From Thauera sp. 28 (GTDB taxonomy: Bacteria > Pseudomonadota > Gammaproteobacteria > Burkholderiales > Rhodocyclaceae): a DNA stretch of 64,000 nt. The notes beneath the pieces are model-generated. The model was not told where the DNA came from and did no database searches. It worked only from the letters and a program-made list of their open reading frames with translations. Position numbers and translations under genes: made by a program. The stretch is from positions 124,001 to 188,000 of the forward strand of contig NZ_AMXA01000002.1 of the NCBI RefSeq assembly GCF_000310145.2, written 5' to 3'. Shown here piece by piece: positions 47,554 to 62,263 of the stretch. How positions within the stretch are numbered: the first letter of the stretch is position 1; every line of letters begins with the position of its first letter.

Positions 47554-47566
47554 GGAGCCTTTGGTT

Positions 47567-49315: not shown

Positions 49316-49351
49316 GATGCCTCCGTTACGGATCTGGCGGACGGGCCGGGC

Positions 49352-50566
49352 TCAGATCTTTGCCGAGGTCAGGTGCGCTGCACCCCAGGTGGTGCGCCAG
49401 CGCGTCTTCACTGCGGTCAGGCCGATCAGTGCGAACACGGCAAGCGCGGCGAACACCAGGAAACCGATCTGGTAGCTGCCGGTGACCTGCTTCGAGTAGC
49501 CGAGGGATGACGCCAGGTAGAAACCGCCGACACCGCCCGCCATTCCGACCAGGCCGGTCATGACGCCGATCTCGCGCCGGAAGCGCTGCGGCACGAGCTG
49601 GAACACCGCACCGTTGCCCATGCCCAGCGCCAGCATCGCACACACGAACACCACCAGCGCCATCCATGCCTCGGGCAGGCCGAAGCTGACGATGGCAAGG
49701 AAGATCGCCGCAAACACGTACATCACGCTGAGCGACTTGACCCCGCCGATGCGGTCCGCCACGTTGCCGCCAATCGGTCGCACCAGCGAACCGGCAAACA
49801 CGCAGCCGGCGGTGAAGAAGCCCGCCATCTTCGGGTCCAGCCCGTACTGGGTATTGAAGTAGATCACCAGCGAGGACGCGAGGCCGACGAAACCACCGAA
49901 AGTGACGGCATAGAAGAACATGAACCACCACGCATCCTTGTCCTTGAGCACCTTCAGGTACTCGGCGAAGGTCTTGGGCGGCGGCGCGTCCGGCGCGTCC
50001 TTGGCCATGAAGCAGAAGGCGACAAGCACGATCACCAGCGGGATCAGCGCGATGCCGAAGACGTTGTGCCAGCCGAAGGCCATCGCCAGGCCGGGGGCGA
50101 ACAGCGCAGCAAAGGCGGTGCCGGAGTTGCCCGCCCCGGCGATGCCCATCGCCGTGCCCTGGTGCTCCGGCGGATACCAGCGCGAAGCCAGCGGCAGCGC
50201 GGCGGCAAACGATGCACCGGCGACGCCGAGGAACACGCCCAGCACCAGCACCTCGGCAAAGGAATGAACGCCTGCAACCCAGGCATAGGCAAGCGCGGCG
50301 ATGACGATGATCTGGCCGATGATCGCCGCCTTCTTCGGCGACAGGCGATCAACCGCCACGCCCATGACGATGCGCAGCAGCGCCCCGGCCAGCACCGGCG
50401 TCGCCACCATCAGGCCCTTCTCGGAATGGGACAAGCCAAGGTCAGCCGAGATGCCCACCGCCAGCGGGCCAAGCAACACCCACACCATGAAGGCGAGGTC
50501 GAAGTACAGGAATGCGGCAATGAGGGTCGGCGTATGGCCGGCCTGCAGGAAGGACTTCTTATCCAT
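49352..50566 (-). CDS. NarK/NasA-type MFS nitrate/nitrite transporter
   Basis: A 404-residue, 12-segment major facilitator. It has the nitrate signature segments AGAGNSGTAFAALFAPGLAMAFGW and GLVGMAGGVGGFYLASSLGYSKQ, plus RPIGGNVADRIGG between helices. It probably imports nitrate or exports nitrite. It is first in a run with the kinase/phosphatase and nasA and lies behind a sigma-54 promoter. With NrtABC, this organism has two different nitrate uptake routes. Confidence 0.92.
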   Translation of the reverse strand: MDKKSFLQAGHTPTLIAAFLYFDLAFMVWVLLGPLAVGISADLGLSHSEKGLMVATPVLAGALLRIVMGVAVDRLSPKKAAIIGQIIVIAALAYAWVAGVHSFAEVLVLGVFLGVAGASFAAALPLASRWYPPEHQGTAMGIAGAGNSGTAFAALFAPGLAMAFGWHNVFGIALIPLVIVLVAFCFMAKDAPDAPPPKTFAEYLKVLKDKDAWWFMFFYAVTFGGFVGLASSLVIYFNTQYGLDPKMAGFFTAGCVFAGSLVRPIGGNVADRIGGVKSLSVMYVFAAIFLAIVSFGLPEAWMALVVFVCAMLALGMGNGAVFQLVPQRFRREIGVMTGLVGMAGGVGGFYLASSLGYSKQVTGSYQIGFLVFAALAVFALIGLTAVKTRWRTTWGAAHLTSAKI

Positions 50567-50639
50567 TTCGGGCTCCAGAGTTCTTGATCACGCGCCGCTT
50601 TGGCGCAATAAACCCCAGCGCATGACTCCGTTGCCCGAA

Positions 50640-50661
50640 GGCCCGCCCTCGATGGCGGGCC
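50640..50661 (-). promoter_or_regulatory. Hexaloop hairpin in the narK leader (NasR-target-like)
   Basis: On the minus strand GGCCCGCC and GGCGGGCC pair perfectly (8 bp) around the six-base loop ATCGAG, which has A at loop position 1 and G at 4, the pattern recognised by ANTAR proteins. It begins about 12 bases after the predicted start site of the 50684-50699 promoter. A second, weak candidate is GGC-AACGGA-GTC just downstream. No terminator is evident, so the role is uncertain. Confidence 0.45.
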
Positions 50662-50683
50662 AGACGCTGTTTCAAAAACACAA

Positions 50684-50699
50684 AGCAAGCATCGTGCCA
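50684..50699 (-). promoter_or_regulatory. Sigma-54 promoter of narK-kinase-nasA
   Basis: The minus strand reads TGGCACGATGCTTGCT, an exact match to the TGGCACG-N4-TTGCW consensus, in the 252-base gap upstream of narK. The predicted start is near 50673, giving a leader of about 107 bases. Confidence 0.85.
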
Positions 50700-50786
50700 A
50701 ACATAAAACAGATGCTTTTCAATAGCTTGACGGTTTCATTGACCACGGCTTGCGCACGACTTCGGGGCATCGCCAAGCGTCATCGC

Positions 50787-50801
50787 GCACAACAACGGTG
50801 C
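50787..50801 (-). promoter_or_regulatory. NtrC-type enhancer site upstream of narK
   Basis: GCAC-N7-GTGC (minus strand GCACCGTTGTTGTGC) matches the NtrC half-site pattern exactly. It is about 90 bases upstream of the sigma-54 promoter, a normal enhancer distance. Confidence 0.7.
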
Positions 50802-50818
50802 ATTCGCCGCGGTCCGGG

Positions 50819-52072
50819 CTACGCCATAGCAGCGGCAACAGGACGTCCGAACAGCAGATGATCGCGGAACGCACTGACGTCCTCACCATCCTTCATGAGC
50901 TGGAAGTGCCAGGCGCCATCCGCCGTATCGCCATACAGCACCGAACCGACAATACGGTCGTTGCGAAGCACGACTCGCTTGTAGACACCCCCCTGGCGAT
51001 CGCGCAGCACGATCTCCTCGGTCCCTTCGCCGCCGCTGAAGTCGCCCGCGGAGAACACATCGATACCGGTCACCTTGAGCTTGGTGGAGGTCACCGAGCC
51101 GGTGTAACGGCCGACACCCACATTGGCGAGATGGCTGGCACACACCCGAGCCTGCTCGAACAGCGGCGCAACCAGGCCATAGGCCACGCCACGATGGGCG
51201 ACACACTCGCCCACCGCGTAGATGCGCGGATCGGTGACGGTCTGCAAGGTGTCCGACACGTGGATACCGCGCACTGGACCGCTGCCGCAGTACAGGCCCG
51301 CAGCTTCGGCGAGCGCAACATTGGGGCGGATGCCGGCTGCGATCACGACCAGGTCGGCAGGGATCTCCGCCCCGTCGGCAAGGCGTAGCGCGCCGACACG
51401 CCCCCCCTCGCCGCCATCCTGGGCGGCAGGCAACAGCGCCTCGGTCTGGCATGCGAGCAGGAACTTCATGCCGCGGGCCTCGAGCTCGGCCTGGAGCATG
51501 TCGGCAGCGGCCTTGTCGAGTTGGCGCTCCATGATCCAGTCGCCCTTGTGCACGACGGTCACCGCCATGCCGCGCCGCATCAGGCCGTTGGCGGCCTCAA
51601 GGCCAAGCACGCCGGCACCGATCACCACCGCATGGCGGTAGCGGCCGGCCGCCGCGATCATCGCCTCGGTGTCGGCGATGTCGCGGTAGCCGAGCACCCC
51701 CGGCAGCGCGCTGCCCGGAATCGGCGGAATGAAGGGCGTCGAGCCGGTGGCCAGCAGCAGGCGGTCGTAGCGCGCCTCGGTGCCGTCCTCGGCGACCACC
51801 TTGCGCCCGACGCGGTCGATCTTCACCACCCGCTTGCCCGCATGCAGCGTCACGCCCCGGTCGCGGTACCAGTCGAGGTCGTTGAGCATGATCTCGGGCA
51901 GGTCCATCTCACCTGCAAGCACCGGTGACAACAGGATGCGGTTGTAATTGCCTTGCGGCTCGGCACCAAACACCGTGATGTCATAGAGCTCGGGGGCGAG
52001 CTTGAGCAACTCCTCGAGCGTGCGCACCCCGGCCATGCCGTTTCCCACCAGGACGAGCTTGATCTTCTCCAT
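50819..52072 (-). CDS. NasC-like FAD/NAD(P)H oxidoreductase of nitrate assimilation
   Basis: A 417-residue two-dinucleotide-binding-domain flavoprotein. It has GNGMAGVRTLEELL (FAD), LLLATGSTPFIPPIPG, VVIGAGVLGLEAANGLMRRG (NADH) and YAVGECVAHRGVAYGLVAPLFEQA. It resembles the N-terminal half of NirB and the NasC electron-donor subunit, without [2Fe-2S], sirohaem or [4Fe-4S] domains; the C-terminal Fe-S of NasA may compensate. Start 52072; the frame is open to 52135. It is 13 bases after nrtC, as in nasFEDCBA of Klebsiella. Confidence 0.85.
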   Translation of the reverse strand: MEKIKLVLVGNGMAGVRTLEELLKLAPELYDITVFGAEPQGNYNRILLSPVLAGEMDLPEIMLNDLDWYRDRGVTLHAGKRVVKIDRVGRKVVAEDGTEARYDRLLLATGSTPFIPPIPGSALPGVLGYRDIADTEAMIAAAGRYRHAVVIGAGVLGLEAANGLMRRGMAVTVVHKGDWIMERQLDKAAADMLQAELEARGMKFLLACQTEALLPAAQDGGEGGRVGALRLADGAEIPADLVVIAAGIRPNVALAEAAGLYCGSGPVRGIHVSDTLQTVTDPRIYAVGECVAHRGVAYGLVAPLFEQARVCASHLANVGVGRYTGSVTSTKLKVTGIDVFSAGDFSGGEGTEEIVLRDRQGGVYKRVVLRNDRIVGSVLYGDTADGAWHFQLMKDGEDVSAFRDHLLFGRPVAAAMA

Positions 52073-52085
52073 GGCCTTGCTCCGC

Positions 52086-52940
52086 TCAGGCCCGCAGGGC
52101 CGCCGCCTCGCGGGTGCTCGCCGCCCCGCGCGCACGGGCGTTGGCGATGGACTCGACCTTGCGCTGCTTCTCGTAGAGGAAGCTCAGCACCTCGTGGCGG
52201 TAGTGGGTGTAGCGTGGATCGTCGGCAAGCGCCAGGCGGTCGCGCGGGCGCGGCAGGTCGATGTCGAGCACCTGGCCGATGGTGGCCGAGGGGCCGTTGG
52301 TCATCATCACGATACGGTCGGACAGCAGCACCGCCTCGTCCACATCGTGGGTGATCATCATCACCGTGTTCTGCAGCTCGGACTGAATGCGCATGACTTC
52401 GTCCTGGAGGTGGGCGCGGGTAAGGGCATCGAGCGCGCCGAAAGGTTCGTCCAGCAGCAGCACCTTGGGCTCCATCGCCAGCGCACGGGCAATGCCCACG
52501 CGCTGCTTCATGCCGCCGGAGATCTCCGCTGGCAGGCGGTCGAGCGCGTGGCTCATGCTCACCATGTCGAGGTTGTGCAGGATCCAGTCGCGCTGCTCGG
52601 CCGCACTGCGCTTGCCCTTGAAGATCTTCTGCACCGCGATCTCGACGTTCTGATACACCGTCAGCCAGGGCAGCAGCGAGTGGTTCTGGAACACCAGGGC
52701 GCGGTCCGGCCCCGGCGAGTTGACCTCGCGGCCATCGACGATGACGCCGCCCGAGGTGGCGCGCAGCAGGCCGGCGACGATGTTGAGCACGGTCGATTTG
52801 CCGCAGCCGGAATGGCCGATCAGCGAAATGTACTCGCCGCGCTGGACGTCGAGATTGACGTCCCGGAGGACCGGGTTGGTGACGCCGCCACGGCTGAAGT
52901 CCATGTCGACGCGGGAGATGCTGAGATAGGGCTGGCTCAT
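52086..52940 (-). CDS. nrtC: Nitrate ABC transporter ATP-binding protein (NrtC/NrtD, NasD type)
   Basis: A 284-residue ABC ATPase: Walker A LIGHSGCGKSTVLNIVAGL, Q-loop FQNHSLLPW, signature LPAEISGGMKQRVGIARALAMEPKVLLLDEPFGALDAL with Walker B, and His in MMITHDVDEAVLLSDRIVMM. It energises nitrate import with nrtB. ATG at 52940 has AAGGAG nine bases upstream; an ATG at 52946 is also in frame. The solute-binding C-terminal domain of cyanobacterial NrtC is absent. Confidence 0.93.
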   Translation of the reverse strand: MSQPYLSISRVDMDFSRGGVTNPVLRDVNLDVQRGEYISLIGHSGCGKSTVLNIVAGLLRATSGGVIVDGREVNSPGPDRALVFQNHSLLPWLTVYQNVEIAVQKIFKGKRSAAEQRDWILHNLDMVSMSHALDRLPAEISGGMKQRVGIARALAMEPKVLLLDEPFGALDALTRAHLQDEVMRIQSELQNTVMMITHDVDEAVLLSDRIVMMTNGPSATIGQVLDIDLPRPRDRLALADDPRYTHYRHEVLSFLYEKQRKVESIANARARGAASTREAAALRA

Positions 52941-52953
52941 GATCATATGCTCC

Positions 52954-53814
52954 TTAAGCGGGACTGGTGCCACGGGTGACGCGCTTGCCGACCCAGGCGA
53001 CCATGCGGTCGAGCAGGAAGCCGACGATGCCGACATAGACGAGGGCGAGGATGATGTCGCTGACCAGCGACGAGTTCCACGCATCCCAGATGAAGAAGCC
53101 GATGCCCACGCCGCCGATCAGCATCTCGGCAGCGATGATCGCCAGCCAGGACAGGCCGACCCCGATGCGCAGCCCGGAAAAGATGTATGGCGCGGCCGCC
53201 GGCAGCATGATCTTCCAGAAGTACTCGACGCCATTGAGGCGGATGACGCGGGCGACGTTGCGGTAGTCCTCGGGGATGTTCCTGATGCCCACCGAGGTGT
53301 TGATGATGATCGGCCAGATCGCGGTGATGAAGATCACGAAGATGGCCGACGGGTTGCTGTCCTGGAAACCGGCCAGCGAGATCGGCAGCCAGGCCAGCGG
53401 CGGCACCGTGCGCAGCACCTGGAACAGGGGATCGAGCCCGCGCAGCGCCCAGGTCGATTGCCCCACCAGCACGCCCAGGCTCACCCCGGCTACTACCGCG
53501 AGCAGGTAACCGTAGGCCACGCGCTCGAGGCTGGCGAGGATCTGCCAGGCCAGGCCGACGTCATTGCCGCCGTTGTCGAAGAAGGGCTGGGTGATGAGCT
53601 CCCAGGTCTCGCTGACCACCTGGCTGGGCGCGGGCAGCGCCGCGCCGGGGCGCGAGCACAGCAGCTCCCACACCGCGCACAGCAGGCCGATGACGACCAG
53701 CGGCGGCAGGACGTGGTTCATGAAGTGGCTGTAGGCCGCACCGGCGCGCACGCGCAGCATGGAGGGCGGCGCGCTGGCCGGCGCCGGGGCGGCGATGGAA
53801 TGGGTGTTGTCCAT
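52954..53814 (-). CDS. nrtB: Nitrate ABC transporter permease
   Basis: A 286-residue permease of the BPD_transp_1 fold with about six membrane segments. The EAA-like loop ALDRLP is not in this gene; here it reads VARVIRLNGVEYFWKIMLPAAAPYIFSGLRIGVGLSW. N-terminal residues 1-25 are Ala/Pro-rich. It follows nrtA by about 50 bases and precedes nrtC by 13 bases, forming the nrtABC transport module. Confidence 0.92.
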   Translation of the reverse strand: MDNTHSIAAPAPASAPPSMLRVRAGAAYSHFMNHVLPPLVVIGLLCAVWELLCSRPGAALPAPSQVVSETWELITQPFFDNGGNDVGLAWQILASLERVAYGYLLAVVAGVSLGVLVGQSTWALRGLDPLFQVLRTVPPLAWLPISLAGFQDSNPSAIFVIFITAIWPIIINTSVGIRNIPEDYRNVARVIRLNGVEYFWKIMLPAAAPYIFSGLRIGVGLSWLAIIAAEMLIGGVGIGFFIWDAWNSSLVSDIILALVYVGIVGFLLDRMVAWVGKRVTRGTSPA

Positions 53815-53865
53815 GACGGGCTCCTGTGGATGTCAGGCCTGTGTCCAGGCCCGGTCGGTTCGGTC

Positions 53866-55173
53866 TCAGCTGCGCACGGTCTTGATGGCGAGGCTGTCGA
53901 GGTAGGCCATCGGGTTCTCGGGATCGAACACCTTGCCGTCGAAGAAGGTCTCCAGCCCGCGCGAGGTCGATGCCGGAATGTCGCTCGCCGCCACGCCCAG
54001 CTCCTGCGCGGCCTGGCGCCACAGGTCCTCGCGGTTCACCTTGCCCACCCAGGCCTTCATGTCGAAGTCGCGCGGCAGGTAGCCCCAGCGGATGTTCTCG
54101 GTGAGGAACCACAGGTCGTGGCTCTGGAAGGGGTAGGAGGCCTGGTCCTTCCAGTAGCGCATCTGCTGCGGGCTGTTCTCGACCACGCGGCCGGTGCCGT
54201 AATCGAAGTCACCGCGCATGCGATCGACGATGTCCTCGAAGGGGGCGTTGATCCAGCGCCGCTTGGCACAGATGCGCGCCACTTCCTCGCGGTTGGCCGG
54301 GTCTTCGCAGAACATCTGCGCCTCCATCACCGCCTTGATCAGTGCCTTGGTCGAGTTCGGATGTGCGTCGACATAATCGGCGCGCATGGCGAAGGCCTTC
54401 TCGGGGTGGTTGTGCCACAACTCGCCGGTGGTGTTGGCGGTGTAGCCGATGCCCTGGTTGATGAGCTGGCGGTTCCACGGCTCGCACACGCAGAAGGTGT
54501 CCATGCTGCCGACCTTCATGTTGGCCACCATCTGCGCCGGCGGCACGACGATGGTCGAGATGTCGCGCGTGGGGTCGATGCCGCCTGCGGCCAGCCAGTA
54601 GCGGATCCACATGTCGTGGGTGCCGCCGGGGAAGGTCATCGCCGCATTGACCGCCTTGCCGCTGGCGCGCTTGGCGGCAAGCGCGTCCTTGAACGCGGTG
54701 GTGTCGGTGCCGACCTTGAGATCCTTGTACTCGTTGCCCACCGAGATGCACTGCCCGGCCAGGTTCAGGCGGGCGAGGATGTACATCGGCACCTGCACGT
54801 TGTTGGCCGTCATCGCCCCGCTGCTGATCAGGTAGGGCATGGGGGTGAGGATGTGGGCGCCGTCGATGCCGTTGCGCTGCGAGCCCAGCACCAGGTTGTC
54901 GCGCGTGGTGCCCCAGGACGACTGCTTGAGCACCTCGACCTCGGTCATGCCGTGCTTGGCGAAGAAGCCCTTCTCGTCGGCGACGAAGAGCGGCGCGGCG
55001 TCGGTGAGCGCGATGAAGCCGAGCTTGGCCTTCTTTGTCTCGAGCGCGCCCCCCGCAGCCCGCGCCGTACCTGTCCACAGTCCGCCCATCATCGCTGCGC
55101 CGCCGAGCGCCATGGCACCGCGGATGAAGTGACGACGACTGACCGCTGCCTGCTTGATTGTCTTGCTGCCCAT
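53866..55173 (-). CDS. nrtA: Nitrate ABC transporter substrate-binding protein
   Basis: A 435-residue periplasmic nitrate-binding protein of the NrtA/CmpA family. The N-terminus has a twin-arginine signal, SRRHFIRGAMALGGAAMMGG, followed by a cleavage-like site near TARAAGG. The binding domain begins KAKLGFIALTDAAPLFVADEKGFFAKHGM. ATG 55173 has AGGAG six bases upstream. It is the first gene after the attenuator leader and the first of nrtABC-nasC. Confidence 0.93.
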   Translation of the reverse strand: MGSKTIKQAAVSRRHFIRGAMALGGAAMMGGLWTGTARAAGGALETKKAKLGFIALTDAAPLFVADEKGFFAKHGMTEVEVLKQSSWGTTRDNLVLGSQRNGIDGAHILTPMPYLISSGAMTANNVQVPMYILARLNLAGQCISVGNEYKDLKVGTDTTAFKDALAAKRASGKAVNAAMTFPGGTHDMWIRYWLAAGGIDPTRDISTIVVPPAQMVANMKVGSMDTFCVCEPWNRQLINQGIGYTANTTGELWHNHPEKAFAMRADYVDAHPNSTKALIKAVMEAQMFCEDPANREEVARICAKRRWINAPFEDIVDRMRGDFDYGTGRVVENSPQQMRYWKDQASYPFQSHDLWFLTENIRWGYLPRDFDMKAWVGKVNREDLWRQAAQELGVAASDIPASTSRGLETFFDGKVFDPENPMAYLDSLAIKTVRS

Positions 55174-55199
55174 GATCGACTCCTGACTATGAACCACTG

Positions 55200-55319
55200 A
55201 AAGCAACAAGGCGCCCATCCCTGCCCAATTGGTATTGGCAATGGATGGACGCCTTTGTCCGGGATGCGACAGCCGCCGGGCTGCGCCTTGAGTCTCGAAC
55301 CGCCTTTGGTTTCGCCTCG
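55200..55319 (-). promoter_or_regulatory. NasR antitermination leader of nrtA (two hexaloops plus terminator)
   Basis: From the predicted start near 55319, hairpin P1 (55314-55296) has stem AACC/GGTT extended by CG/CG with a bulged A and loop AAAGGC. P2 (55260-55247) is GGAC-AAAGGC-GTCC. Both loops have A at position 1 and G at position 4. A terminator-like stem (55255-55208) pairs AAGGCG-T-CCATCC with GGATGG-G-CGCCTT, followed by GTTGCTTTC. The 5' arm of the terminator overlaps P2, so the two are mutually exclusive. This is the layout expected for ANTAR-protein antitermination. Confidence 0.85.
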
Positions 55320-55329
55320 ATCAAGCTAT

Positions 55330-55345
55330 TGCAGGACTCGTGCCA
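55330..55345 (-). promoter_or_regulatory. Sigma-54 promoter of nrtA operon
   Basis: The minus strand reads TGGCACGAGTCCTGCA, matching TGGCACG-N4-TTGCW except for one base (C for T). GG and GC spacing is exact. The predicted start is near 55319, at the edge of hexaloop hairpin P1. Confidence 0.85.
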
Positions 55346-55423
55346 GCTCTTGAATAAGGCCCCTATCTTTTTTAAATCATGGACTTGAAGCAATACTACT
55401 GGAGTGCCGAGTCATACATCCAC

Positions 55424-55438
55424 GCACTGCTGCAGTGC
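55424..55438 (-). promoter_or_regulatory. NtrC-type enhancer site 1 upstream of nrtA
   Basis: GCACTGCTGCAGTGC is an exact GCAC-N7-GTGC site about 80 bases upstream of the sigma-54 promoter. Confidence 0.75.
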
Positions 55439-55454
55439 AACAGATGGACATGGC

Positions 55455-55469
55455 GCACAGCCGCAGTGC
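55455..55469 (-). promoter_or_regulatory. NtrC-type enhancer site 2 upstream of nrtA
   Basis: GCACAGCCGCAGTGC is a second exact GCAC-N7-GTGC site, 31 bases from the first, close to three helical turns. Tandem sites at this spacing suit cooperative NtrC binding. Confidence 0.75.
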
Positions 55470-55522
55470 GTTGCGCACCACGAGTACCCCTGCAGGCCGG
55501 ACGCCTTACGCAACACGCAGGT

Positions 55523-56794
55523 TCAGCTGCGCGGCGGAAGCAGGTCGGACATCGCCAGCACGGCCTGGGCCACATCTACCAGGCGCCGCCCCTGGTTCAT
55601 CGCGGTCCGGCGCAGCAGGCGATAGGCCTCATCCTCGGCCAGGCCCTGGTGCCGCATCAGCTCCCCCTTGGCGCGCTCGATGAGCTTGCGCTCGTCGAGC
55701 GCAGTACGCACCGCAGCCAGCTCGTCGTTCATCGCTTGCAGACGCTGCGCCTGCGCATGCAAGGCATCTACAATCGAACGCCGCAGGCGCGGCCCGAGGG
55801 CCTCCACCCCATCCTCCGTGGGCAGCACACCGCTCGGCGACACCGGCTCGGGCTGCGCTGCGAGTGCGCGCAACAGGCTTTGCGGATCGTCCGGATCGGC
55901 CTGCAAGGCGGCGATGCGCTGCAGGCAGGCGGCGCGCAAGCCCTGCGCAAGCGCCGCCTCGGTGTCACGAATCAGCTCCAGGCGCTGCGAGCAGCAGGCG
56001 AACCAGGCCTGTGCCTGCGCGGGATCGAGCACCGCGCCCTGGGCGGCAGCCAGCAACCTGCGCCGCATGCGTTCGAGTTCGCCCATCGGCATCGCGGCCT
56101 TGGCCTGGGCCCAGGTGCCGAGCAGTTCAGTCGGACAGAAGGCCTCGAAGCGCTCGAAGCAGGCCTCCTGGGCATCGATCAGGTGGAGCAGGTCCTGGCC
56201 GCCAGCGGCCGCCGTGCTCGCAGCCGCCGCACCAGCCGCGAACGCCGCGGCGCCGGCTGCACGCTCCTGACCAGCATGCTCCTTGCCTTGCATGAGGTTG
56301 AACAGCGCCACCAGCAAGCGTGACACTGCCGGATCGGCCGCGACATCGGCCGCCTCGAACACGAGCGCCAGCAAGGCTGCAACCATGCGGTTGAAACGCA
56401 GCGTGGCATCTGCGGCCTTGCAGCGCCGGGCAGCGACCTCCGCGCGCAGTTCGGCCAAGCCGTCGAGCGCATGCAGCGCCACCGCAATCCGCGTGAACAG
56501 CCTTGCACCACCGGGCACCGCCACGATGGGCGCATCCTGACCGCCCTCGACCTGAGCGAGCCAGCTGCGCAGTGCAGCCTCTGCTTGTGCGCTGAGGGCA
56601 ACGCAGGCTTCGCGCTGGGAGACGAACACCTCGCCACCGGAAGCCAGGAACAGGTTGGAAGCACCACGCTCGCCCTGCAGCCGATGCACGAGTTCGCTCA
56701 CGGCCTGGACGAGGTCGCAACTGCGGGCAAGGTGTTCGAGGTCGTGGATCTCGCACTGTCGGGCAGCGGCGAGGAAGGCAAGCGTCGAGTTCAT
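55523..56794 (-). CDS. nasR: Nitrate-responsive antitermination regulator NasR (NIT-ANTAR)
   Basis: NasR binds nitrate or nitrite through its NIT domain and then binds hexaloop hairpins in nascent leader RNA to prevent termination. The 423-residue protein has the NIT start DLVQAVSELVHRLQGERGASNLFLAS, an Ala-rich low-complexity stretch in the middle (AAGAAAFAAGAAAASTAAAG), and a C-terminal ANTAR domain, LDERKLIERAKGELMRHQGL followed by EDEAYRLLRRTAMNQGRRLVDVAQA. ATG 56794 matches the family; the frame is open to 56866. It ends 350 bases before nrtA, with the nrtA control region between them. Confidence 0.94.
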   Translation of the reverse strand: MNSTLAFLAAARQCEIHDLEHLARSCDLVQAVSELVHRLQGERGASNLFLASGGEVFVSQREACVALSAQAEAALRSWLAQVEGGQDAPIVAVPGGARLFTRIAVALHALDGLAELRAEVAARRCKAADATLRFNRMVAALLALVFEAADVAADPAVSRLLVALFNLMQGKEHAGQERAAGAAAFAAGAAAASTAAAGGQDLLHLIDAQEACFERFEAFCPTELLGTWAQAKAAMPMGELERMRRRLLAAAQGAVLDPAQAQAWFACCSQRLELIRDTEAALAQGLRAACLQRIAALQADPDDPQSLLRALAAQPEPVSPSGVLPTEDGVEALGPRLRRSIVDALHAQAQRLQAMNDELAAVRTALDERKLIERAKGELMRHQGLAEDEAYRLLRRTAMNQGRRLVDVAQAVLAMSDLLPPRS

Positions 56795-56845
56795 GAGCGG
56801 TTCCAGCAAAGGGCTGTTGGCAGGCCAGAAGGCGGAGAGACTACA

Positions 56846-56861
56846 AGCAACAACCGTGCAA
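56846..56861 (-). promoter_or_regulatory. Possible sigma-54 promoter of nasR
   Basis: The minus strand reads TTGCACGGTTGTTGCT, matching TGGCACG-N4-TTGCW at all positions except the first G of the -24 element. It lies 52 bases upstream of the nasR start, in the 116-base gap after the PyrD-like gene. The missing G weakens it. Confidence 0.35.
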
Positions 56862-56910
56862 TGCACGCGTCACGCCCGGCCATACCCGCACGCGACAGCC
56901 GCCGCCGACC

Positions 56911-57891
56911 TCAACCTTGCGCGCAAGCCCCCGTACAGGCGCCCTGCCGACGCCCCCGCCGCACACCCAGCCCGGCGATGCCCAGGCTCAGGGACAGCGC
57001 CCGTCGCGGCGCAGCGATCAGGGCGCGATGCACCTGCACCAGGTCGGCTCCCGCAGCCAGACGCGCAGCCGCCTCGCGCACCGAGCCGACACCCCCCACG
57101 CTGATCAGGGCCGTGCGCTCGCCCACTTCCGCAGCGACCCTGGCGATGCGAAGCGCCGCTGGCATCGAATCCCCTTCAGCCGACAGCAGAAGGCCATCCG
57201 CACCCGCGTCGATCATATGGTGTGCCCAGCGCACGCCCCCCGCAGCAGCCAGCCAGGGCGCAGGCAGCTTGGCCACGAGGGCGAGGCGGATGGGACGCGC
57301 CAGGCGGTCGCGTACCTTGGCCAGTGCGGCCAGCAACTCGATGCACTGGGCTGGGGTGGCGCCACTGCGCCCCGGGTTCAGCACGACATAGTCGGCCGTG
57401 GCATGGCAGGCTGCAAAAAGGGCTTGCAGCCGTTCCAGCGCGTGCCCTCCGCGCCTGGTGTCGCCCTTCCCTTCAAGACGCGGTACGAGCAGACTCAGAC
57501 CATGCAGGCAGACACCCATCCGGCCGCCGCCCGCTGCCACATGCCGGCGCGCCGCAGCCACCCGCACACGGGGTGACGGACAGGCTGACGATGTCCGCAG
57601 GCTCCCCGTCTCGACGGCGCCCAGACCGAGTCGCGACGCATTCTCCAGCAGCACGCCATGGCGGTCGAAGCCGGCCGCGAGCAGCAGCGGCGAACCGAAC
57701 CGCAACCCCATCACCTCGACCACGGACGCAGTCATGCCTCGGCCATGCACGACGCCGTCGGCGCGCGCAACCCACTCGGCCGGCTCAACCCCATGACGCG
57801 CCAGCCGCAGTAGCGACCAGCGTGTGCGCAAAGCGCGTGGACTCAGGGCGGGAAGCGTCATCCACGCGCTACTCAAGGTGCCTGGTGGCAC
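56911..57891 (-). CDS. Degenerate PyrD-like (dihydroorotate dehydrogenase-fold) protein
   Basis: A 326-residue TIM-barrel protein related to class 2 dihydroorotate dehydrogenase. Matching landmarks are PLLLAAGFDRHGVLLENASRLGLGAVETGSL, DYVVLNPGRSGATPAQ, RLALVAKLPAPWLA, DAGADGLLLSAEG and ISVGGVGSVREAAARLAAGADLVQVHRALI. The NxSSPNT catalytic-base loop of class 2 enzymes is NPGRSGAT here, and the Asn-rich substrate loops are altered, so orotate chemistry is doubtful. GTG 57891 has GAGG upstream and overlaps the SerC-like gene by 19 bases; ATG 57861 is an alternative. Last gene of the pqq operon. Confidence 0.72.
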   Translation of the reverse strand: MPPGTLSSAWMTLPALSPRALRTRWSLLRLARHGVEPAEWVARADGVVHGRGMTASVVEVMGLRFGSPLLLAAGFDRHGVLLENASRLGLGAVETGSLRTSSACPSPRVRVAAARRHVAAGGGRMGVCLHGLSLLVPRLEGKGDTRRGGHALERLQALFAACHATADYVVLNPGRSGATPAQCIELLAALAKVRDRLARPIRLALVAKLPAPWLAAAGGVRWAHHMIDAGADGLLLSAEGDSMPAALRIARVAAEVGERTALISVGGVGSVREAAARLAAGADLVQVHRALIAAPRRALSLSLGIAGLGVRRGRRQGACTGACAQG

Positions 57892-59102
57892 CGGCCAGCC
57901 TCGCTGCAGGCGAAGCCGCTCAGCAGGCCTGCGAGCGCCGCCACCGCGTCGTCGGCGAGTCCGTTATAGAGGCTCAGGCGTACACCGCCGCGTTCGGGAT
58001 GGCCTCCCAGGTCGTGCAAATCCGTCGCGTCCGCAGCCGCGAAGAAGCGCCGGGCGGTCTCCTCGTCGGGCAGCTGGAAGCAGGGATTGACCTGCGAGCG
58101 CCAGGCGCTGGGCGCGCTCCAGCGATAGAGACCGACATCCTCACCCGCGGCCATGGCCGCGGTCACCAAGGCATGGCGGTGCGCGAGCCGGACCGCCATG
58201 GCCGCCACGCCGCCGGCCGCCTCGATCCAGTGCAACATGCGGTGGGCAACGAAGACCGGCAGCACCGGCGGCGTACACAGGCGGGACTCCGCCTCGGCCT
58301 GGGCGCCGTAGTCCATGACCCGCGGCGTACCTGCTCGGGCATGTCCGAGCAGGGAGCGGCGGATGATCACCAGGGTGAGCCCCGGTGTGCCGATCGTCTT
58401 CTGCGTTCCTGCATAGCCGACGTCGAGCCGCTGCCAGTCGATCGCGCGGGTGAGCAGTTCGGACGTGAGATCGGCCACCAGCGGCGCCTGCGTAACCGGG
58501 AGCCGGGCGAACTGCAGCCCGTCGGCAGTCTCGTTGGGCGTGACATGGACGTAGGCGGGGCGGTAGCCAACCGCGTCCTCCAGAACGGACATGCCGACAC
58601 GCGTCTGCGCAGCTGCAGTCTCAGGCACGCCACCGCACCCCCACGCCGCCGTCAGCGCCGCCAACGCGCACACATGCACCGGGCAGTGGCGCCGCGCCTC
58701 GGCAATGGCCCGCCGCGACCAGTGCCCACTGTCGATATAAACAGCCCGCGTTCCAGTGTCTGCGCCGTACAGGTTCATGGGCACCAGGGCAAACTGCGTG
58801 CTCGCACCGCCCGCCATGAACAGGACCACGAACTCGTCCGGGATCGCCAGCAGCCGGCGCAGGCATGCTTCGGTCTCGGCCTGCAGGTTGCGATAGGCCG
58901 ATGTAGTGAAGGGCAGGCTCAGGATCGATCCCGGCCCCGGCCGGCAGGCCTCAGCCACCTCGTCCGCAACCACCGTGGGCAGCGGTCCCGCCGCCGCGGA
59001 AAAGCTGAACCCGGGCCGCGTACGCCAGGCCGCAAGGCCGGTGGGGACGCGCCCGGACGCTGATGTCGACAGCTGCGGGTCAGGAGAAGAGCGCGATCCC
59101 AT
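57873..59102 (-). CDS. SerC-like PLP-dependent aminotransferase (class V)
   Basis: A 409-residue fold-type I aminotransferase paralogous to phosphoserine aminotransferase. Landmarks are FSAAAGPLPTVV, VVLFMAGGASTQFALVPMNL, VTPNETADGL, VADLTSELLTRAIDW and YAGTQKTIGTPGLTLVIIRRSLLG, whose Lys is the PLP Schiff-base residue. SerC makes phosphoserine; the substrate here is unknown, because the gene is embedded in the pqq operon and the sequence has drifted. It overlaps its upstream neighbour by 23 bases and the downstream PyrD-like gene by 19. Confidence 0.8.
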   Translation of the reverse strand: MGSRSSPDPQLSTSASGRVPTGLAAWRTRPGFSFSAAAGPLPTVVADEVAEACRPGPGSILSLPFTTSAYRNLQAETEACLRRLLAIPDEFVVLFMAGGASTQFALVPMNLYGADTGTRAVYIDSGHWSRRAIAEARRHCPVHVCALAALTAAWGCGGVPETAAAQTRVGMSVLEDAVGYRPAYVHVTPNETADGLQFARLPVTQAPLVADLTSELLTRAIDWQRLDVGYAGTQKTIGTPGLTLVIIRRSLLGHARAGTPRVMDYGAQAEAESRLCTPPVLPVFVAHRMLHWIEAAGGVAAMAVRLAHRHALVTAAMAAGEDVGLYRWSAPSAWRSQVNPCFQLPDEETARRFFAAADATDLHDLGGHPERGGVRLSLYNGLADDAVAALAGLLSGFACSEAGRCHQAP

Positions 59103-59589
59103 GCGTTCCAGCCCCCATCAGAAAGACCACCGGGATCGACAGCATGGTGTTGACCCGTGCCGACAGGAAGGTGACGCGGGAGCAGCGCAAGCGCTCGTCC
59201 AGCGGCGCGGGGACGAAGCCGAGTACGCGCTTCTGGTGCGGCCACAAGACGAACCACAGGTTGCACACCATGATCACCCCCAGCCAGACGCCCAGCCCGA
59301 GCGGCGCCAGGCTGCCCTGCAGGCTGAGTGCATCGAGCAACCAGCCGCGCTCCCACAGGATCGCCAGGCCGGTTCCCAGCACCACCAGCGAGCCATGGCG
59401 GAAGGTGCCGTGCTCGCGCTGCATGAGCGCACGCTGGCGCGGGCTGTCCGGGTCGGACAGGTCGGCGGCGGTGAGCGGGACGTAGCGCGCGCGCGTGACC
59501 GCGGTGGCGTAGTTGTGTCCGACCCACACCAGTGCGCCAAGCACATGCAGCCAGCGCGCCACGGTCTCGAACAGGATCTCCATCGTCAT
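59080..59589 (-). CDS. PuuD-like integral membrane protein
   Basis: A 169-residue protein with about four membrane segments and the pattern of the urate hydroxylase PuuD membrane domain: ARWLHVLGALVWVGHNYAT, SLVVLGTGLAILWERG, GVIMVCNLWFVLWPHQKRVLG and a terminal FLSARVNTMLSIPVVFLMGAGTHG. The cytochrome c domain of full PuuD is absent. His residues in the first and last segments could hold haem (inference). It starts 5 bases after the small membrane ORF and overlaps the SerC-like gene. Confidence 0.72.
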   Translation of the reverse strand: MTMEILFETVARWLHVLGALVWVGHNYATAVTRARYVPLTAADLSDPDSPRQRALMQREHGTFRHGSLVVLGTGLAILWERGWLLDALSLQGSLAPLGLGVWLGVIMVCNLWFVLWPHQKRVLGFVPAPLDERLRCSRVTFLSARVNTMLSIPVVFLMGAGTHGIALFS

Positions 59590-59594
59590 CTCGC

Positions 59595-59699
59595 CTAGCC
59601 CGACACGCGCAGCAGCAGCGTCAGCACTGCAGTGAGCACGACGCCATACGCCACCGTCACCACCGAGGAGTCGAACGCACGCAGCAGCAGGTCAGACAT
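59595..59699 (-). CDS. Small membrane peptide (34 residues) in the pqq operon
   Basis: An ORF of 34 residues starts ATGTCTGA, overlapping the pqqE stop by eight bases (59699-59692). It begins MSDLLLRAFDSSVVTVAYGV and has one hydrophobic helix across residues about 12-31 (SVVTVAYGVVLTAVLTLLL), with a short polar N-terminus. The TAG stop is five bases before the PuuD-like ATG, so it bridges two genes in the coupled series. I know no named family that fits; the overlap geometry is the main support that it is translated. Confidence 0.5.
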   Translation of the reverse strand: MSDLLLRAFDSSVVTVAYGVVLTAVLTLLLRVSG

Positions 59700-60909
59700 C
59701 GGACGGCTCCACGACGGCAACGGCAAGGTCCGCGCGCCCGGCAGCCCCACAACCTCCGCCCGTGCCGCTGCCTTCGCCGAGCAGGCGCGAATTGCGATCG
59801 TTGCGCAGCACGAGCGGCTGGATCCTGCGCCCGGGTGCGTGCGCCTTGGCGATCGCCTCGGCAATCAGGTGGTGGTGCGGCGAGCGCGAACAGGCGGGGT
59901 CGGTGTTTGCTGCGTCGCCGGTGAGCAGGAAGGCCTGGCAGCGGCAGCCGCCGAAGTCCTTCTCCTTCTCGTCGCAGCTGCGGCAGGTCGGGCTCATCCA
60001 CTCGTCGCCGCGAAATTTCTGGAAGGTCGGCGACTCGTTCCACAGCCACGCCAGGCTATTGTCGCGGATGCTGGGAAATTCCAGCCCCTCGATGACGCGC
60101 GCCTCCTGGCAGGGCATGGCAACACCGTCGGGTGCAATGGTGAGGTGGATCGAGCCCCAGCCGTTCATGCACGCCTTGGGGCGGCCCTCGTAATAGTCGG
60201 GGATGACGAAGTAGATCGTCATGCGGTCGCCAAGACGTTCGCGCGCGGCCTGGACCGCACGTTCGGCGGCCTGCAGCTGCTCGCGCGTCGGCAGCAGTTC
60301 GTCGCGATTGACCATCGCCCAGTTGTAGTACTGGATGTTGGCGAACTCGAGGTAATCGACGCCGATTTCCTCGGCCAGGCGCAGGATGTCCTCGACCTGG
60401 CCGATGTTCTGGCGGAACACCGGCACATTGAGCACCATCGGGAAGCCATGCGCCTTGATCATGTGCGCGACCTTCACCTTGAGGTCGTGCGCCCGCGCAC
60501 CAACCAGGGTGTCGGTGAGTTCGCGCTCGCTCGACTGCAGCGAAAGCTGGATCTGGTTGAGGCCGGCGGCCTTGAGCGCGCTGAGGCGCGCCTCGCTCAG
60601 GCCGACACCCGAGGTGATCAGGTTGGTGTAGTAGCCCAGTGCGCGCGCATCGGCGACCAGTTCCTCGAGGTCGTCGCGCAGCAGGGGCTCGCCACCGGTA
60701 AAACCGAGCTGCAGCGCGCCCAGTTCGCGGCCTTCGCGCAGCACGCGCTTCCACTCGGCAGTGGACAGCTCGGCGGTCTCGTCGCGGGCGTAATCGACCG
60801 GATTGCTGCACCACGGACACTTCAGCGGACAGCGGTAGGTGAGCTCGAGCACCAGCCACAGGGGCTTGCCCTGCCCATCAAGCCTGACGACGGATCCATC
60901 CTTTGGCAC
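59692..60909 (-). CDS. pqqE: PQQ biosynthesis radical SAM protein PqqE
   Basis: PqqE is the radical SAM enzyme that joins the Glu and Tyr side chains of PqqA, bound to PqqD. The 405-residue product begins VPKDGSVVRLDGQGKPLWLV from a GTG at 60909 with GGAGG six bases upstream. The radical SAM cluster is Cys27, Cys31 and Cys34 (TYRCPLKCPWCSN), then LGFTGGEPLLRDDL. The SPASM domain has CMNGWGSIHLTIAPDGVAMPC and CRSCDEKEKDFGGCRC. A C-terminal tail of about 30 Gly/Ala-rich residues is beyond the usual end. It overlaps pqqD by 32 bases. Confidence 0.95.
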   Translation of the reverse strand: MPKDGSVVRLDGQGKPLWLVLELTYRCPLKCPWCSNPVDYARDETAELSTAEWKRVLREGRELGALQLGFTGGEPLLRDDLEELVADARALGYYTNLITSGVGLSEARLSALKAAGLNQIQLSLQSSERELTDTLVGARAHDLKVKVAHMIKAHGFPMVLNVPVFRQNIGQVEDILRLAEEIGVDYLEFANIQYYNWAMVNRDELLPTREQLQAAERAVQAARERLGDRMTIYFVIPDYYEGRPKACMNGWGSIHLTIAPDGVAMPCQEARVIEGLEFPSIRDNSLAWLWNESPTFQKFRGDEWMSPTCRSCDEKEKDFGGCRCQAFLLTGDAANTDPACSRSPHHHLIAEAIAKAHAPGRRIQPLVLRNDRNSRLLGEGSGTGGGCGAAGRADLAVAVVEPSDV

Positions 60910-61177
60910 GGAACACCTCCAGGAATGTGTAGACGCCCTCGGCCACGCGTTCCTCGTCGCCCGGGTAGCGCTGCTGCAACTCGGCGACGAGTTCGGCGAC
61001 GGTGCGTTTGCCGTCGCAGCGCTCGATGATGTCGCCGGCGGTCTGGTTGAGCTTGACGATGCCTTCCGGGTAGAGCAGGACATGGGCGTCCTGAGTGGGC
61101 TCCCAGCGGAAGAGATACATCGGGTTGAGCGCGTAGCGCTCGCCCGCGGCAGGCGGGCTGACGGCTGAGTCGTTCAT
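60878..61177 (-). CDS. pqqD: PQQ peptide chaperone PqqD
   Basis: PqqD binds the PqqA precursor and presents it to PqqE. The 99-residue protein has the RiPP-recognition winged-helix pattern: RYALNPMYLFRWEPTQDAHVLLYPEGIVKLNQTAGDIIERCDGKRTV and ELVAELQQRYPGDEERVAEGVYTFLEVFRAKGWI. ATG 61177 fits the family; 61198 is open upstream. It is separated from pqqA by 63 bases containing a long GC-rich hairpin. Confidence 0.93.
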   Translation of the reverse strand: MNDSAVSPPAAGERYALNPMYLFRWEPTQDAHVLLYPEGIVKLNQTAGDIIERCDGKRTVAELVAELQQRYPGDEERVAEGVYTFLEVFRAKGWIRRQA

Positions 61178-61205
61178 GCGGGCATCCGCTCCGGGCAAGC
61201 GCCGG

Positions 61206-61236
61206 CCGGCCGCCCGCAGGCAGGCCGGGCGGCCGG
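61206..61236 (-). promoter_or_regulatory. GC-rich hairpin between pqqA and pqqD
   Basis: An 11-bp perfect stem, CCGGCCGCCCG with CGGGCGGCCGG, surrounds a nine-base loop directly after the pqqA stop. No T-run follows. It probably protects or partially attenuates the mRNA so that the precursor peptide is made in excess over the enzymes, a known need in pqq operons; this use is inference. Confidence 0.55.
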
Positions 61237-61240
61237 ACTT

Positions 61241-61315
61241 TCAGCGTACGTAGACGTAGGCGGTGACTTCGAAGCCGAGACGGATGTCGCAATAAGCGGG
61301 GTCGGTCCACTGCAT
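61241..61315 (-). CDS. pqqA: PQQ precursor peptide PqqA
   Basis: A 24-residue precursor, too short for standard gene calling. It starts MQWTDPAYCDIR and continues LGFEVTAYVYVR. Glu16 and Tyr20, the ExxxY pair cross-linked by PqqE to form pyrroloquinoline quinone, are in the expected places. The ATG has AGAGGAG upstream. It heads the minus-strand run pqqA-pqqD-pqqE. Confidence 0.93.
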   Translation of the reverse strand: MQWTDPAYCDIRLGFEVTAYVYVR

Positions 61316-61485
61316 GATGTGTCTCCTCTTGAATGATGGTGGCTGAACCGGCTTGTTTGCCGGCTCAGGGGCCATCATCCCGGTGACAGCAGCCGGCGGG
61401 ATCCGCAGGATCGCGACCCCGCCATCGACGCGATCACCAGCGCGAACTGGCGAATATCATGATTCTTCCGCCACTGGTGCCGGTT

Positions 61486-61499
61486 TTGATGCAGATCAA
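61486..61499 (-). promoter_or_regulatory. FNR/Anr box upstream of pqqA
   Basis: TTGATCTGCATCAA on the minus strand is a perfect TTGAT-N4-ATCAA FNR site. It overlaps the last codons of bluB. With its centre at 61492.5, the expected class II start site at +41.5 is near 61451, and a -10-like CATGAT (61461-61456) sits where it should. This suggests oxygen-responsive activation of the pqq operon. Confidence 0.72.
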
Positions 61500-62263
61500 C
61501 GCAGAACCGGCACGACCTGGTCAATCGCCTCGACCAAGCGCTCACCCGCGGCATCTGCCCTGCCCTGCCAGCCATCGAAATGCAGCAGTTCGGGCAAGGG
61601 CACGCGCCTGAGCCAACCGGCCGCCTCCAGTTCGGGGCGGGCATGGAAGTCGCGGACGTAGCCGATGCACAGGTAGGCGATGGGCACGATCTCGGGCGGA
61701 ATGCCGAGTGCCTCACGCAGCGCCGGCGGGTGCAGGATGCTCACCCAGCCTACGCCGAGGTTCTCGGCCCGTGCCGCGAGCCACAGGTTCTGCACTGCAC
61801 ACACGGCGCTGTAGACGTCCATGGCGCCGATGTGGGTGCGGCCGATCACCACCGGGCCGTGACGGCTGCGATCGCAGGTGATGCAGATATTGACCGGCGA
61901 CTCGAGGATGCCTTCGAGCTTGAGATTGCGGTAGGTGGCGCGCTTGCCCTCCTCGAACATCTGCTCGGCCTCGGCATGGGCGGCGAGGAAATCGGCATGG
62001 ATCTTCTCGCGCACCGCGCGCGCGCGCACGACGATGAAATCCCACGGCTGCATGAAGCCGACCGAGGGCGCGTGATGGGCGGCCGTGAGCACGCGCGCCA
62101 GCACGTCATCCGGGATCGGGTCGGGGAGGAACTCGCCGCGTACGTCACGGCGGGTGTGGATGGCGCGATACACCGCGTCGCGCTCGGCGCTGCTGAACCG
62201 AGGGTTGGTCTGGAAACGGGTGTCCTGCGGCGGTGCGCAATGCACCTGGGTCTGGCTGCTCAT
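61496..62263 (-). CDS. bluB: 5,6-dimethylbenzimidazole synthase BluB
   Basis: BluB splits FMNH2 with O2 to make the lower ligand of cobalamin. The 255-residue flavin-destructase of the nitroreductase fold has RDVRGEFLPDPIPDDVLARVL, AAHHAPSVGFMQPWDFIVV, TYRNLKLEGILESPVNICITCDRSRHGPVVIGRT and ENLGVGWVSILHPPALREALGIP. It follows a cobalamin riboswitch. Because it needs oxygen, its neighbour, an FNR-type box for the next operon, is notable. Confidence 0.95.
   Translation of the reverse strand: MSSQTQVHCAPPQDTRFQTNPRFSSAERDAVYRAIHTRRDVRGEFLPDPIPDDVLARVLTAAHHAPSVGFMQPWDFIVVRARAVREKIHADFLAAHAEAEQMFEEGKRATYRNLKLEGILESPVNICITCDRSRHGPVVIGRTHIGAMDVYSAVCAVQNLWLAARAENLGVGWVSILHPPALREALGIPPEIVPIAYLCIGYVRDFHARPELEAAGWLRRVPLPELLHFDGWQGRADAAGERLVEAIDQVVPVLR

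Follow-up and report, generated by a model that had tools for sequence, protein, structure and literature searches.

The closest described relative of the operon analyzed here is the pqqAED-puuD-serC-pyrD cluster of Hyphomicrobium denitrificans (Hden_0548-0553), which is found beside a complete pqqABCDE set for pyrroloquinoline quinone (PQQ) (PMC12423496, section 2.9). According to the same article, transcription of Hden_0551-0553 is lower in sHdrR and SoxR repressor mutants, and the cluster accompanies canonical pqqABCDE in several denitrifiers, five further organisms being named. Its authors speculate that the cluster completes PQQ without O2; they also describe the growth of H. denitrificans on methanol plus nitrate and report that Klebsiella pneumoniae and Pseudomonas aeruginosa, with the canonical genes alone, make no anaerobic PQQ. 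According to PMC11102522, PQQ-dependent methanol dehydrogenases will be held back under anoxia by the O2 requirement of PQQ biosynthesis, the function of PQQ enzymes under full anoxia being ascribed there solely to carried-over or supplied PQQ. Here we analyze an operon with the same gene set from Thauera sp. 28, located at positions 56911 to 61499 of a stretch of 64,000 nucleotides (nt), the window (G000:C2:124001-188000, G000 being the host genome).

Like the H. denitrificans cluster, the window operon is second to a complete pqqABCDE, and the Hyphomicrobium loci L116 and L117 matched the same queries as its genes; however, it contains a microprotein that was not detected in the Hyphomicrobium loci examined. 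PqqA with an E-x3-Y motif, PqqD and PqqE are held in common with canonical pqqABCDE systems, whereas the window operon lacks PqqB and PqqC and has a PqqA ending in TAYVYVR, an FNR-type box and extra genes of membrane, pyridoxal phosphate (PLP) and flavin type. Mycofactocin involves a PqqD-like chaperone, a SPASM radical S-adenosylmethionine (SAM) enzyme and a flavin mononucleotide (FMN) enzyme finishing a peptide-derived redox cofactor. These component types are similar, but the PqqE of the window scored as PqqE (504.5 bits) and reached 111.4 bits on the maturase model TIGR03962, under its cut-off of 265, and a mycofactocin system was rejected. UbiT/UbiU/UbiV, described in PMC12423496 as performing O2-independent ubiquinone steps, offer a functional analogy alone, with O2-independent steps replacing O2-dependent ones in denitrifiers.

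O2-free finishing of PQQ by the cluster is already in print (2025) as speculation; what is new here is its regulatory, comparative and active-site support, together with the microprotein. The microprotein, the FNR boxes, the genomes with one PqqE, the altered active sites and the PqqA core go unmentioned in section 2.9 of PMC12423496. Our preferred reading, with a probability of about 0.72, is that the operon would constitute a dedicated, FNR-controlled, O2-independent PQQ route.

The window operon and its recurrence

The earlier note, made from the DNA alone, described seven open reading frames (ORFs) on one strand, and all of them were found on the minus strand with the overlaps claimed: 32 nt for pqqD/pqqE, given a GTG start of pqqE at 60909, 8 nt for pqqE/microprotein, 23 nt for the PuuD-like/SerC-like pair and 19 nt for the SerC-like/PyrD-like pair. 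The features of the operon are:

61486..61499, minus strand: FNR/ANR-type box TTGAT-CTGC-ATCAA, 5' of pqqA2, overlapping the bluB stop codon
61241..61315, minus strand: pqqA2, precursor of 24 residues, MQWTDPAYCDIRLGFEVTAYVYVR, with Glu16 and Tyr20 (TIGR02107, 33.5 bits, cut-off 20); similar peptides occur in relatives
60878..61198, minus strand: pqqD2, peptide chaperone (TIGR03859, 101.5 bits, cut-off 46); an alternative ATG start at 61177 is possible
59692..60909, minus strand: pqqE2, radical SAM/SPASM enzyme, predicted Glu-Tyr cross-linker (TIGR02109, 504.5 bits, cut-off 381; SPASM domain PF13186, 34.3 bits), with a predicted GTG start
59595..59699, minus strand: conserved single-transmembrane microprotein of 34 residues, with profile matches across relatives
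59080..59589, minus strand: PuuD-like four-helix membrane protein, presumed haem protein (PF06181 and invariant His15, 25, 60 and 163)
57873..59102, minus strand: SerC-like PLP-type enzyme without the substrate-phosphate arginines; start position putative
56911..57891, minus strand: PyrD-like TIM-barrel protein of FMN type in which the catalytic serine is missing; start position putative

The description of PqqA, PqqD and PqqE as canonical also held, since the E-x3-Y pair Glu16/Tyr20 and the CX3CX2C motif of PqqE2 (Cys27/31/34) are intact and all three proteins score above their NCBIfam cut-offs. The absence of pqqB and pqqC from the operon was confirmed by its ORF content, and both genes were located elsewhere in the host genome, at G000:C9, with another pqqA, pqqD and pqqE. 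The window operon is therefore the second pqqADE set of a genome that holds a complete canonical pqqA-B-C-D-E, and because of that complete set the second one probably has another job. The two precursors differ at their ends, the canonical PqqA of the host finishing in GFEITMYIANR and the cassette-type PqqA in TAYVYVR. The core RLGFEVTAYVYVR was present in 121 of 122 cassette-type peptides, part of it being fixed by the scan pattern, and in none of the 19 canonical pqqA examined.

A DNA pattern for the PqqA2 core, which fixes E-[VI]-T-A-Y-x-Y, matched at least 117 stretches with one genome taken per species; 80 of them formed a first set (L043-L122) and the remaining 37 (L123-L159) a later hold-out. 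Among the 117 listed stretches, each of at most 8 kb, 88 contained at least one of the PuuD-like, SerC-like and PyrD-like genes, 54 contained all three plus pqqD and pqqE, and 31 contained pqqB or pqqC. The survey of other genomes advocated by the earlier note thus revealed the gene set in alpha-, beta- and gammaproteobacteria, and a tblastn search of plasmids found it on those of Methylovirgula sp. HY1 and Acidibrevibacterium fodinaquatile. The reappearance of this set across genera and classes shows that the operon is no chance assembly. Whole-genome tests were performed on 50 genomes of the first 80 stretches, with isolates favoured and many rows representing close relatives; all 50 encode a cassette-type PuuD-like protein (at least 262 bits), located 94-393 nt 3' of a same-strand PqqE. 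Loci with a PuuD-like gene and enough sequence also contain the SerC-like gene (49/49) and the PyrD-like gene (48/49), three genomes being counted twice (L071/L224, L050/L223 and L120/L220), and this recurrence rules out unrelated passengers. In a separate class sample of 369 genomes, five high-scoring PuuD-like proteins were detected, including that of the window, all beside PqqE and SerC-like genes. The cassette was found in 2 of 100 other genomes of the host family, a count based on a divergent PyrD-like query that may miss others, and no match to the PqqA2 pattern was obtained in viral contigs.

Several observations were made around these loci. A second PuuD-like membrane family (about 107-158 bits) occurs in 92 of the 369 class genomes; in the 15 examined of these 92 lower-scoring proteins (L195-L209) no adjoining pqq gene and no PqqE or SerC-like neighbour within about 1.5 kb was found, and in five loci the neighbours resemble argD, asnB or pyrC by eye. 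In Methylovirgula, the plasmid-borne cassette adjoins genes for a CbpA/CbpB peptide-maturation pair and for a Crp/Fnr regulator (L039:3454-6303). Acidovorax sp. 210-6 and Dechloromonas agitata (L044/L226 and L076/L217) share a pqqE-to-pqqC spacing of 5275 nt, and their scores and peptides are identical or almost so, a likeness that suggests recent transfer or contamination.

A shared PqqE and FNR-type boxes

The main argument for PQQ as the cassette product comes from genomes with a single PqqE. Eleven of the 50 genomes (G102, G107, G111, G118, G124, G125, G134, G135, G140, G141 and G146) encode one PqqE above cut-off plus PqqC and the PuuD-like protein, and in each the PqqA matched by the pattern belongs to the TAYVYVR type. 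PqqC is encoded within 8 kb of the PqqE gene in seven of the 11, 16-30 kb away in three, and in the last on a separate contig. In an unrooted PqqE tree (89 rows, 81 after removal of near-copies), the 19 canonical PqqE need one label change, with a support of merely 78/22, and cassette-type PqqE fall into supported groups of 17 and 45 rows, the window PqqE2 grouping with the cassette type. The PqqE of the 11 single-PqqE genomes lie inside the cassette groups, 10 of them under one 12-row node with support 100/98. Judging from this gene content, the cassette-type PqqE must in these genomes supply the precursor for PqqB and PqqC. Because one PqqE serves both pqqB/pqqC and the PuuD-, SerC- and PyrD-like genes in 11 of 50 genomes, its product would very probably be the PQQ precursor.

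PqqC was present in 49 of the 50 cassette genomes, and in 25 of them no more than 31 kb separate it from the cassette PqqE (26 had been picked for closeness, and in G141 it lies on another contig). A PQQ alcohol dehydrogenase above cut-off was found in all 32 genomes tested, the host included, and a PQQ dehydrogenase occurs in the cassette flank at seven loci in six genomes (L065, L069, L107, L120/L220, L222 and L225), two of these being named as such by NCBIfam. G139, a Rhodocyclales metagenome-assembled genome with the cassette and one PqqE but no PqqC match, encodes a PQQ alcohol dehydrogenase (756 bits) about 8 kb from pqqE, a combination that supports the proposed route. Directly upstream of pqqA2 in that genome (L225:10263-12446), and only there among the loci tested, lies the gene of a membrane protein of 727 residues, of FMN-binding/4Fe-4S type, that looks NosR-like by eye.

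The sequence TTGATCTGCATCAA at 61486-61499, upstream of pqqA2, is the sole TTGAYN4RTCAA in the 64 kb window, where 0.11 were expected, and its TTGAT-N4-ATCAA operator is a perfect FNR-type match. Loci of the first set were assigned by rule to gene-order classes (60 A-D-E, 15 B-C-A-D and 9 other); an earlier split by eye had given 61 and 23 loci, and L119, with its short upstream stretch, was left out. In the 300 nt preceding pqqA, the full box was found in 42 of 87 A-D-E loci (29/60 in the first set, 13/27 in the hold-out), counts that include close relatives and are not independent, at a shuffle rate of 0.0009. It was present in 1 of 13 loci of the remaining gene-order class and in none of the 21 loci in which pqqB/pqqC precede pqqA, two of the six hold-out B-C-A-D loci matching it at 9 of 10 positions. 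Nor was it found upstream of any of 20 canonical pqqA, namely that of the host and 19 others (L242 was dropped, no pqqA being found, and L227 and L229 are one species). A chance box is ruled out by the shuffles, the window-wide count and the hold-out loci. Directly upstream of the operon, on the same strand, lies bluB (5,6-dimethylbenzimidazole synthase, 61496-62263), which adjoins the cassette also in L058 and L115.

Association with denitrification was tested in the family to which the Stutzerimonas genome G103 belongs (by inference Pseudomonadaceae; 248 genomes), as the class sample contained merely five cassette-type PuuD in 369 genomes. NosZ was found in 32 of 33 genomes with the cassette-type PuuD-like protein versus 63 of 215 without it (Fisher p = 2e-14, a value inflated because many positives are probably close relatives). 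NarG was detected in 37 of the 50 cassette genomes, and in seven of these 37 (G108, G117, G119, G121, G126, G138 and G141, by eye) narG lies less than 50 kb from the cassette on the same contig. Downstream of the window operon and on the same strand, nitrate-assimilation-type genes occupy 44785-56866, encoding a NasA/formate-dehydrogenase-type molybdoenzyme, NarK-like, NirB-like and NrtA-like proteins and a NIT-ANTAR regulator; the molybdoenzyme and the NarK- and NirB-like proteins score under the cut-offs of their models. A NIT-ANTAR relative was also noted close to the cassette of L119 and, in part, of L112.

Membrane, PLP-type and flavin-type proteins of the cassette

The three accessory proteins are recognizable members of their families, with 61.2 bits for the SerC-like protein on Aminotran_5 (cut-off 21.5), 42.7 bits for the PyrD-like protein on DHO_dh (cut-off 27) and 35.8 bits for the PuuD-like protein on Urate_ox_N (PF06181, cut-off 26.9), this last domain being matched in part. 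All 26 SerC-like sequences compared have K at the position of K198 (E. coli SerC numbering), taken here as the lysine for PLP, and R at that of R335, taken as the carboxylate arginine. The position of R42 is R in none of the 26 and that of R329 in one, both being presumably substrate-phosphate arginines, and the position of H41 is F in all. Solved phosphoserine aminotransferases display SHR, a motif assumed here to bind the substrate phosphate, and GHR/GHK, whereas the SerC-like proteins instead have PF with T, S, G, D or A as the next residue (26/26). A pattern count over 51 ORFs agrees with the loss of the substrate-phosphate arginines, and a simple pattern applied to 21 hold-out ORFs gave PF in 20, with 1 unread, and R/K after GH in 2. 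This loss rules out a true SerC, and because of it the substrate would probably be an amino acid without phosphate.

For the PyrD-like protein, the best PDB match was the E. coli dihydroorotate dehydrogenase 1f76. The position of serine 175, which we take to be the catalytic serine of class 2 dihydroorotate dehydrogenases, is S in 2 of 26 sequences and R in the window protein, and a true dihydroorotate dehydrogenase is ruled out by its absence. The K208 barrel lysine (26/26) and the GG, GA and Q positions of the FMN phosphate motif (25-26/26) are retained.

PuuD urate oxidase has a C-terminal cytochrome c domain. The PuuD-like protein shares its N-terminal membrane domain, but, with 169 residues and an end at the last long helix, it has no room for the C-terminal one. 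Its His15, 25, 60 and 163 are invariant in 22 sequences, and the structural model is a helical membrane bundle (predicted local distance difference test score 91.6) that aligned with cytochrome b561 4o6y (Z 10.5, root mean square deviation 3.2, 142 residues aligned), unrelated helical bundles matching alongside. VIA-align likewise returned general helical bundles, cytochromes b among them; with Foldseek the best match had E 0.48, none reaching 0.001, and the PuuD-like alignment searched as a profile against the PDB found nothing up to E = 1. The PuuD-like protein is presumed to bind haem, and the PyrD- and SerC-like proteins are predicted to bind FMN and PLP, respectively.

A profile of the microprotein, built from 13 examples that are counted among its matches, matched 70 loci of the first set, three of them weakly (E 3.5e-5 to 4.4e-3), and in the 49 measured it lies 88-293 nt upstream of the PuuD-like gene; nothing else scored under E = 1 in 19,211 six-frame fragments. 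In the hold-out, it was present in 23 of 28 loci with the PuuD-like gene, 97-244 nt upstream, and no locus had a second match. The first-set counts include four genomes twice (L071/L224, L050/L223, L120/L220 and L043/L225). The microprotein was not found in 8 of 56 first-set loci with pqqE and the PuuD-like gene (L039, L079, L085, L086, L090, L111, L116 and L117), nor is it listed among the genes of the Acidibrevibacterium plasmid, the table of which is incomplete, and one example compared with Pfam gave no match. As its conservation indicates, it is a conserved membrane peptide and not an incidental ORF; the obvious guess would be that it serves the PuuD-like membrane protein as a small subunit.

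Proposed oxygen-independent completion of PQQ and its rivals

The best reading of the cassette is probably anaerobic finishing of PQQ, mostly in denitrifiers; from the sequences we infer PQQ as the product, an anaerobic function, and what each finishing enzyme does and in which order. Because PqqD2 and PqqE2 are intact family members above cut-off, they are predicted to cross-link Glu16 and Tyr20 of PqqA2, after which a putative protease would free the cross-linked Glu-Tyr. The PuuD-like protein with the microprotein, the PyrD-like flavoprotein and the SerC-like PLP enzyme would then stand in for the O2-dependent PqqB and PqqC. The finishing steps would deliver their electrons to the respiratory chain, and water would be the source of the single additional oxygen atom. 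By formula, cross-linked Glu-Tyr, C14H18N2O7, plus H2O yields PQQ, C14H6N2O8, plus 14 H.

Several points weigh against this proposal. The aminotransferase has no obvious place in it, PQQ keeping both nitrogens, and for this reason the SerC-like step is the least understood of the proposed route, leaving some slight room for a different product. In B-C-A-D-type genomes the full box is missing upstream of pqqA, as given above, and also upstream of pqqE (0/11, these rows including L226 of G101, which has a second PqqE). About half of the A-D-E cassettes are without it, several Stutzerimonas match at merely 7-8 of 10 positions, and Methylovirgula (L039), Hyphomicrobium L085, L111, L116 and L117 have neither the full box nor the microprotein. 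The NosZ association is not phylogenetically independent, NarG gave no match in 13 of the 50 cassette genomes in a search for NarG alone and not Nap, and the nitrate genes in the window look assimilatory. The weight of G139 is reduced, since the absence of a PqqC match from a metagenome-assembled genome may equal incompleteness and pqqB was not searched for there. Moreover, no report of enzyme activity or anaerobic PQQ from the cluster was found in the open-licence literature.

The earlier note had offered two explanations, PQQ biosynthesis with pqqB and pqqC elsewhere and unrelated passengers, or a different quinone-like cofactor. The first stood as far as the location of pqqB and pqqC is concerned but failed on the passengers, the PuuD-like gene following PqqE in 50 of 50 genomes. 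The second is disfavoured. It would have the cassette make a distinct cofactor for anaerobic enzymes, such as a transaminated or partly oxidised Glu-Tyr product, and could draw on the PLP aminotransferase-type protein with its lysine intact and its substrate pocket changed, on the distinct PqqA core and on the lack of pqqB and pqqC in the operon. Nevertheless, the same PqqE and PqqA must serve pqqB/pqqC too in the 11 single-PqqE genomes, and PQQ alcohol dehydrogenases occur in 32 of 32 genomes, beside the cassette in six, so we consider it unlikely. Doubtful to the same degree is the variant in which the same cross-linked peptide would be turned, via the PLP step, into a PQQ relative of altered nitrogen or oxidation state used anaerobically; if true, some bacteria would make two quinone cofactors from one precursor. 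The earlier note had also listed findings that would tell against its own proposal: pqqB and pqqC side by side elsewhere together with ordinary PQQ production, to which the complete pqqABCDE of the host answers in part, and no recurrence in other genomes, which is contradicted by the wide recurrence of the set.

Alternatively, the oxidations might still be carried out by PqqB and PqqC, acting in trans if required, with the extra genes serving to modify, transport, regenerate or protect PQQ. The retention of PqqC in nearly all cassette genomes, and at short distance in 25 of them, would suit such a role; however, the FNR-type boxes fit an anaerobic function, in which PqqC would be without its O2, and G139 yielded no PqqC match, so that we regard this explanation, too, as improbable. 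A simple second copy of pqqADE that raises gene dosage, with unrelated genes travelling alongside, would agree with PqqA, PqqD and PqqE all exceeding their NCBIfam cut-offs and with the plasmid location of the set in two genomes, but it is largely refuted by the same gene order in three proteobacterial classes and the near-universal SerC-like and PyrD-like companions, and is by far the least credible of the readings. An O2-independent finish to the same cofactor, which the earlier note did not consider, fits these data best and appears rather likely.

Such a route would explain how PQQ enzymes are kept working without air in nitrate-breathing bacteria. PQQ synthesis is held to need O2, yet H. 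denitrificans grows on methanol plus nitrate, and a defined, FNR-controlled alternative to PqqB and PqqC makes this contradiction testable. If the proposal is true, public annotation mislabels the cassette genes (as serC, urate hydroxylase and dihydroorotate oxidase on two plasmids) and overlooks the microprotein, and the cassette would carry out a new kind of O2-free chemistry in which, going by the formulae, 14 electrons are removed and water supplies the oxygen.

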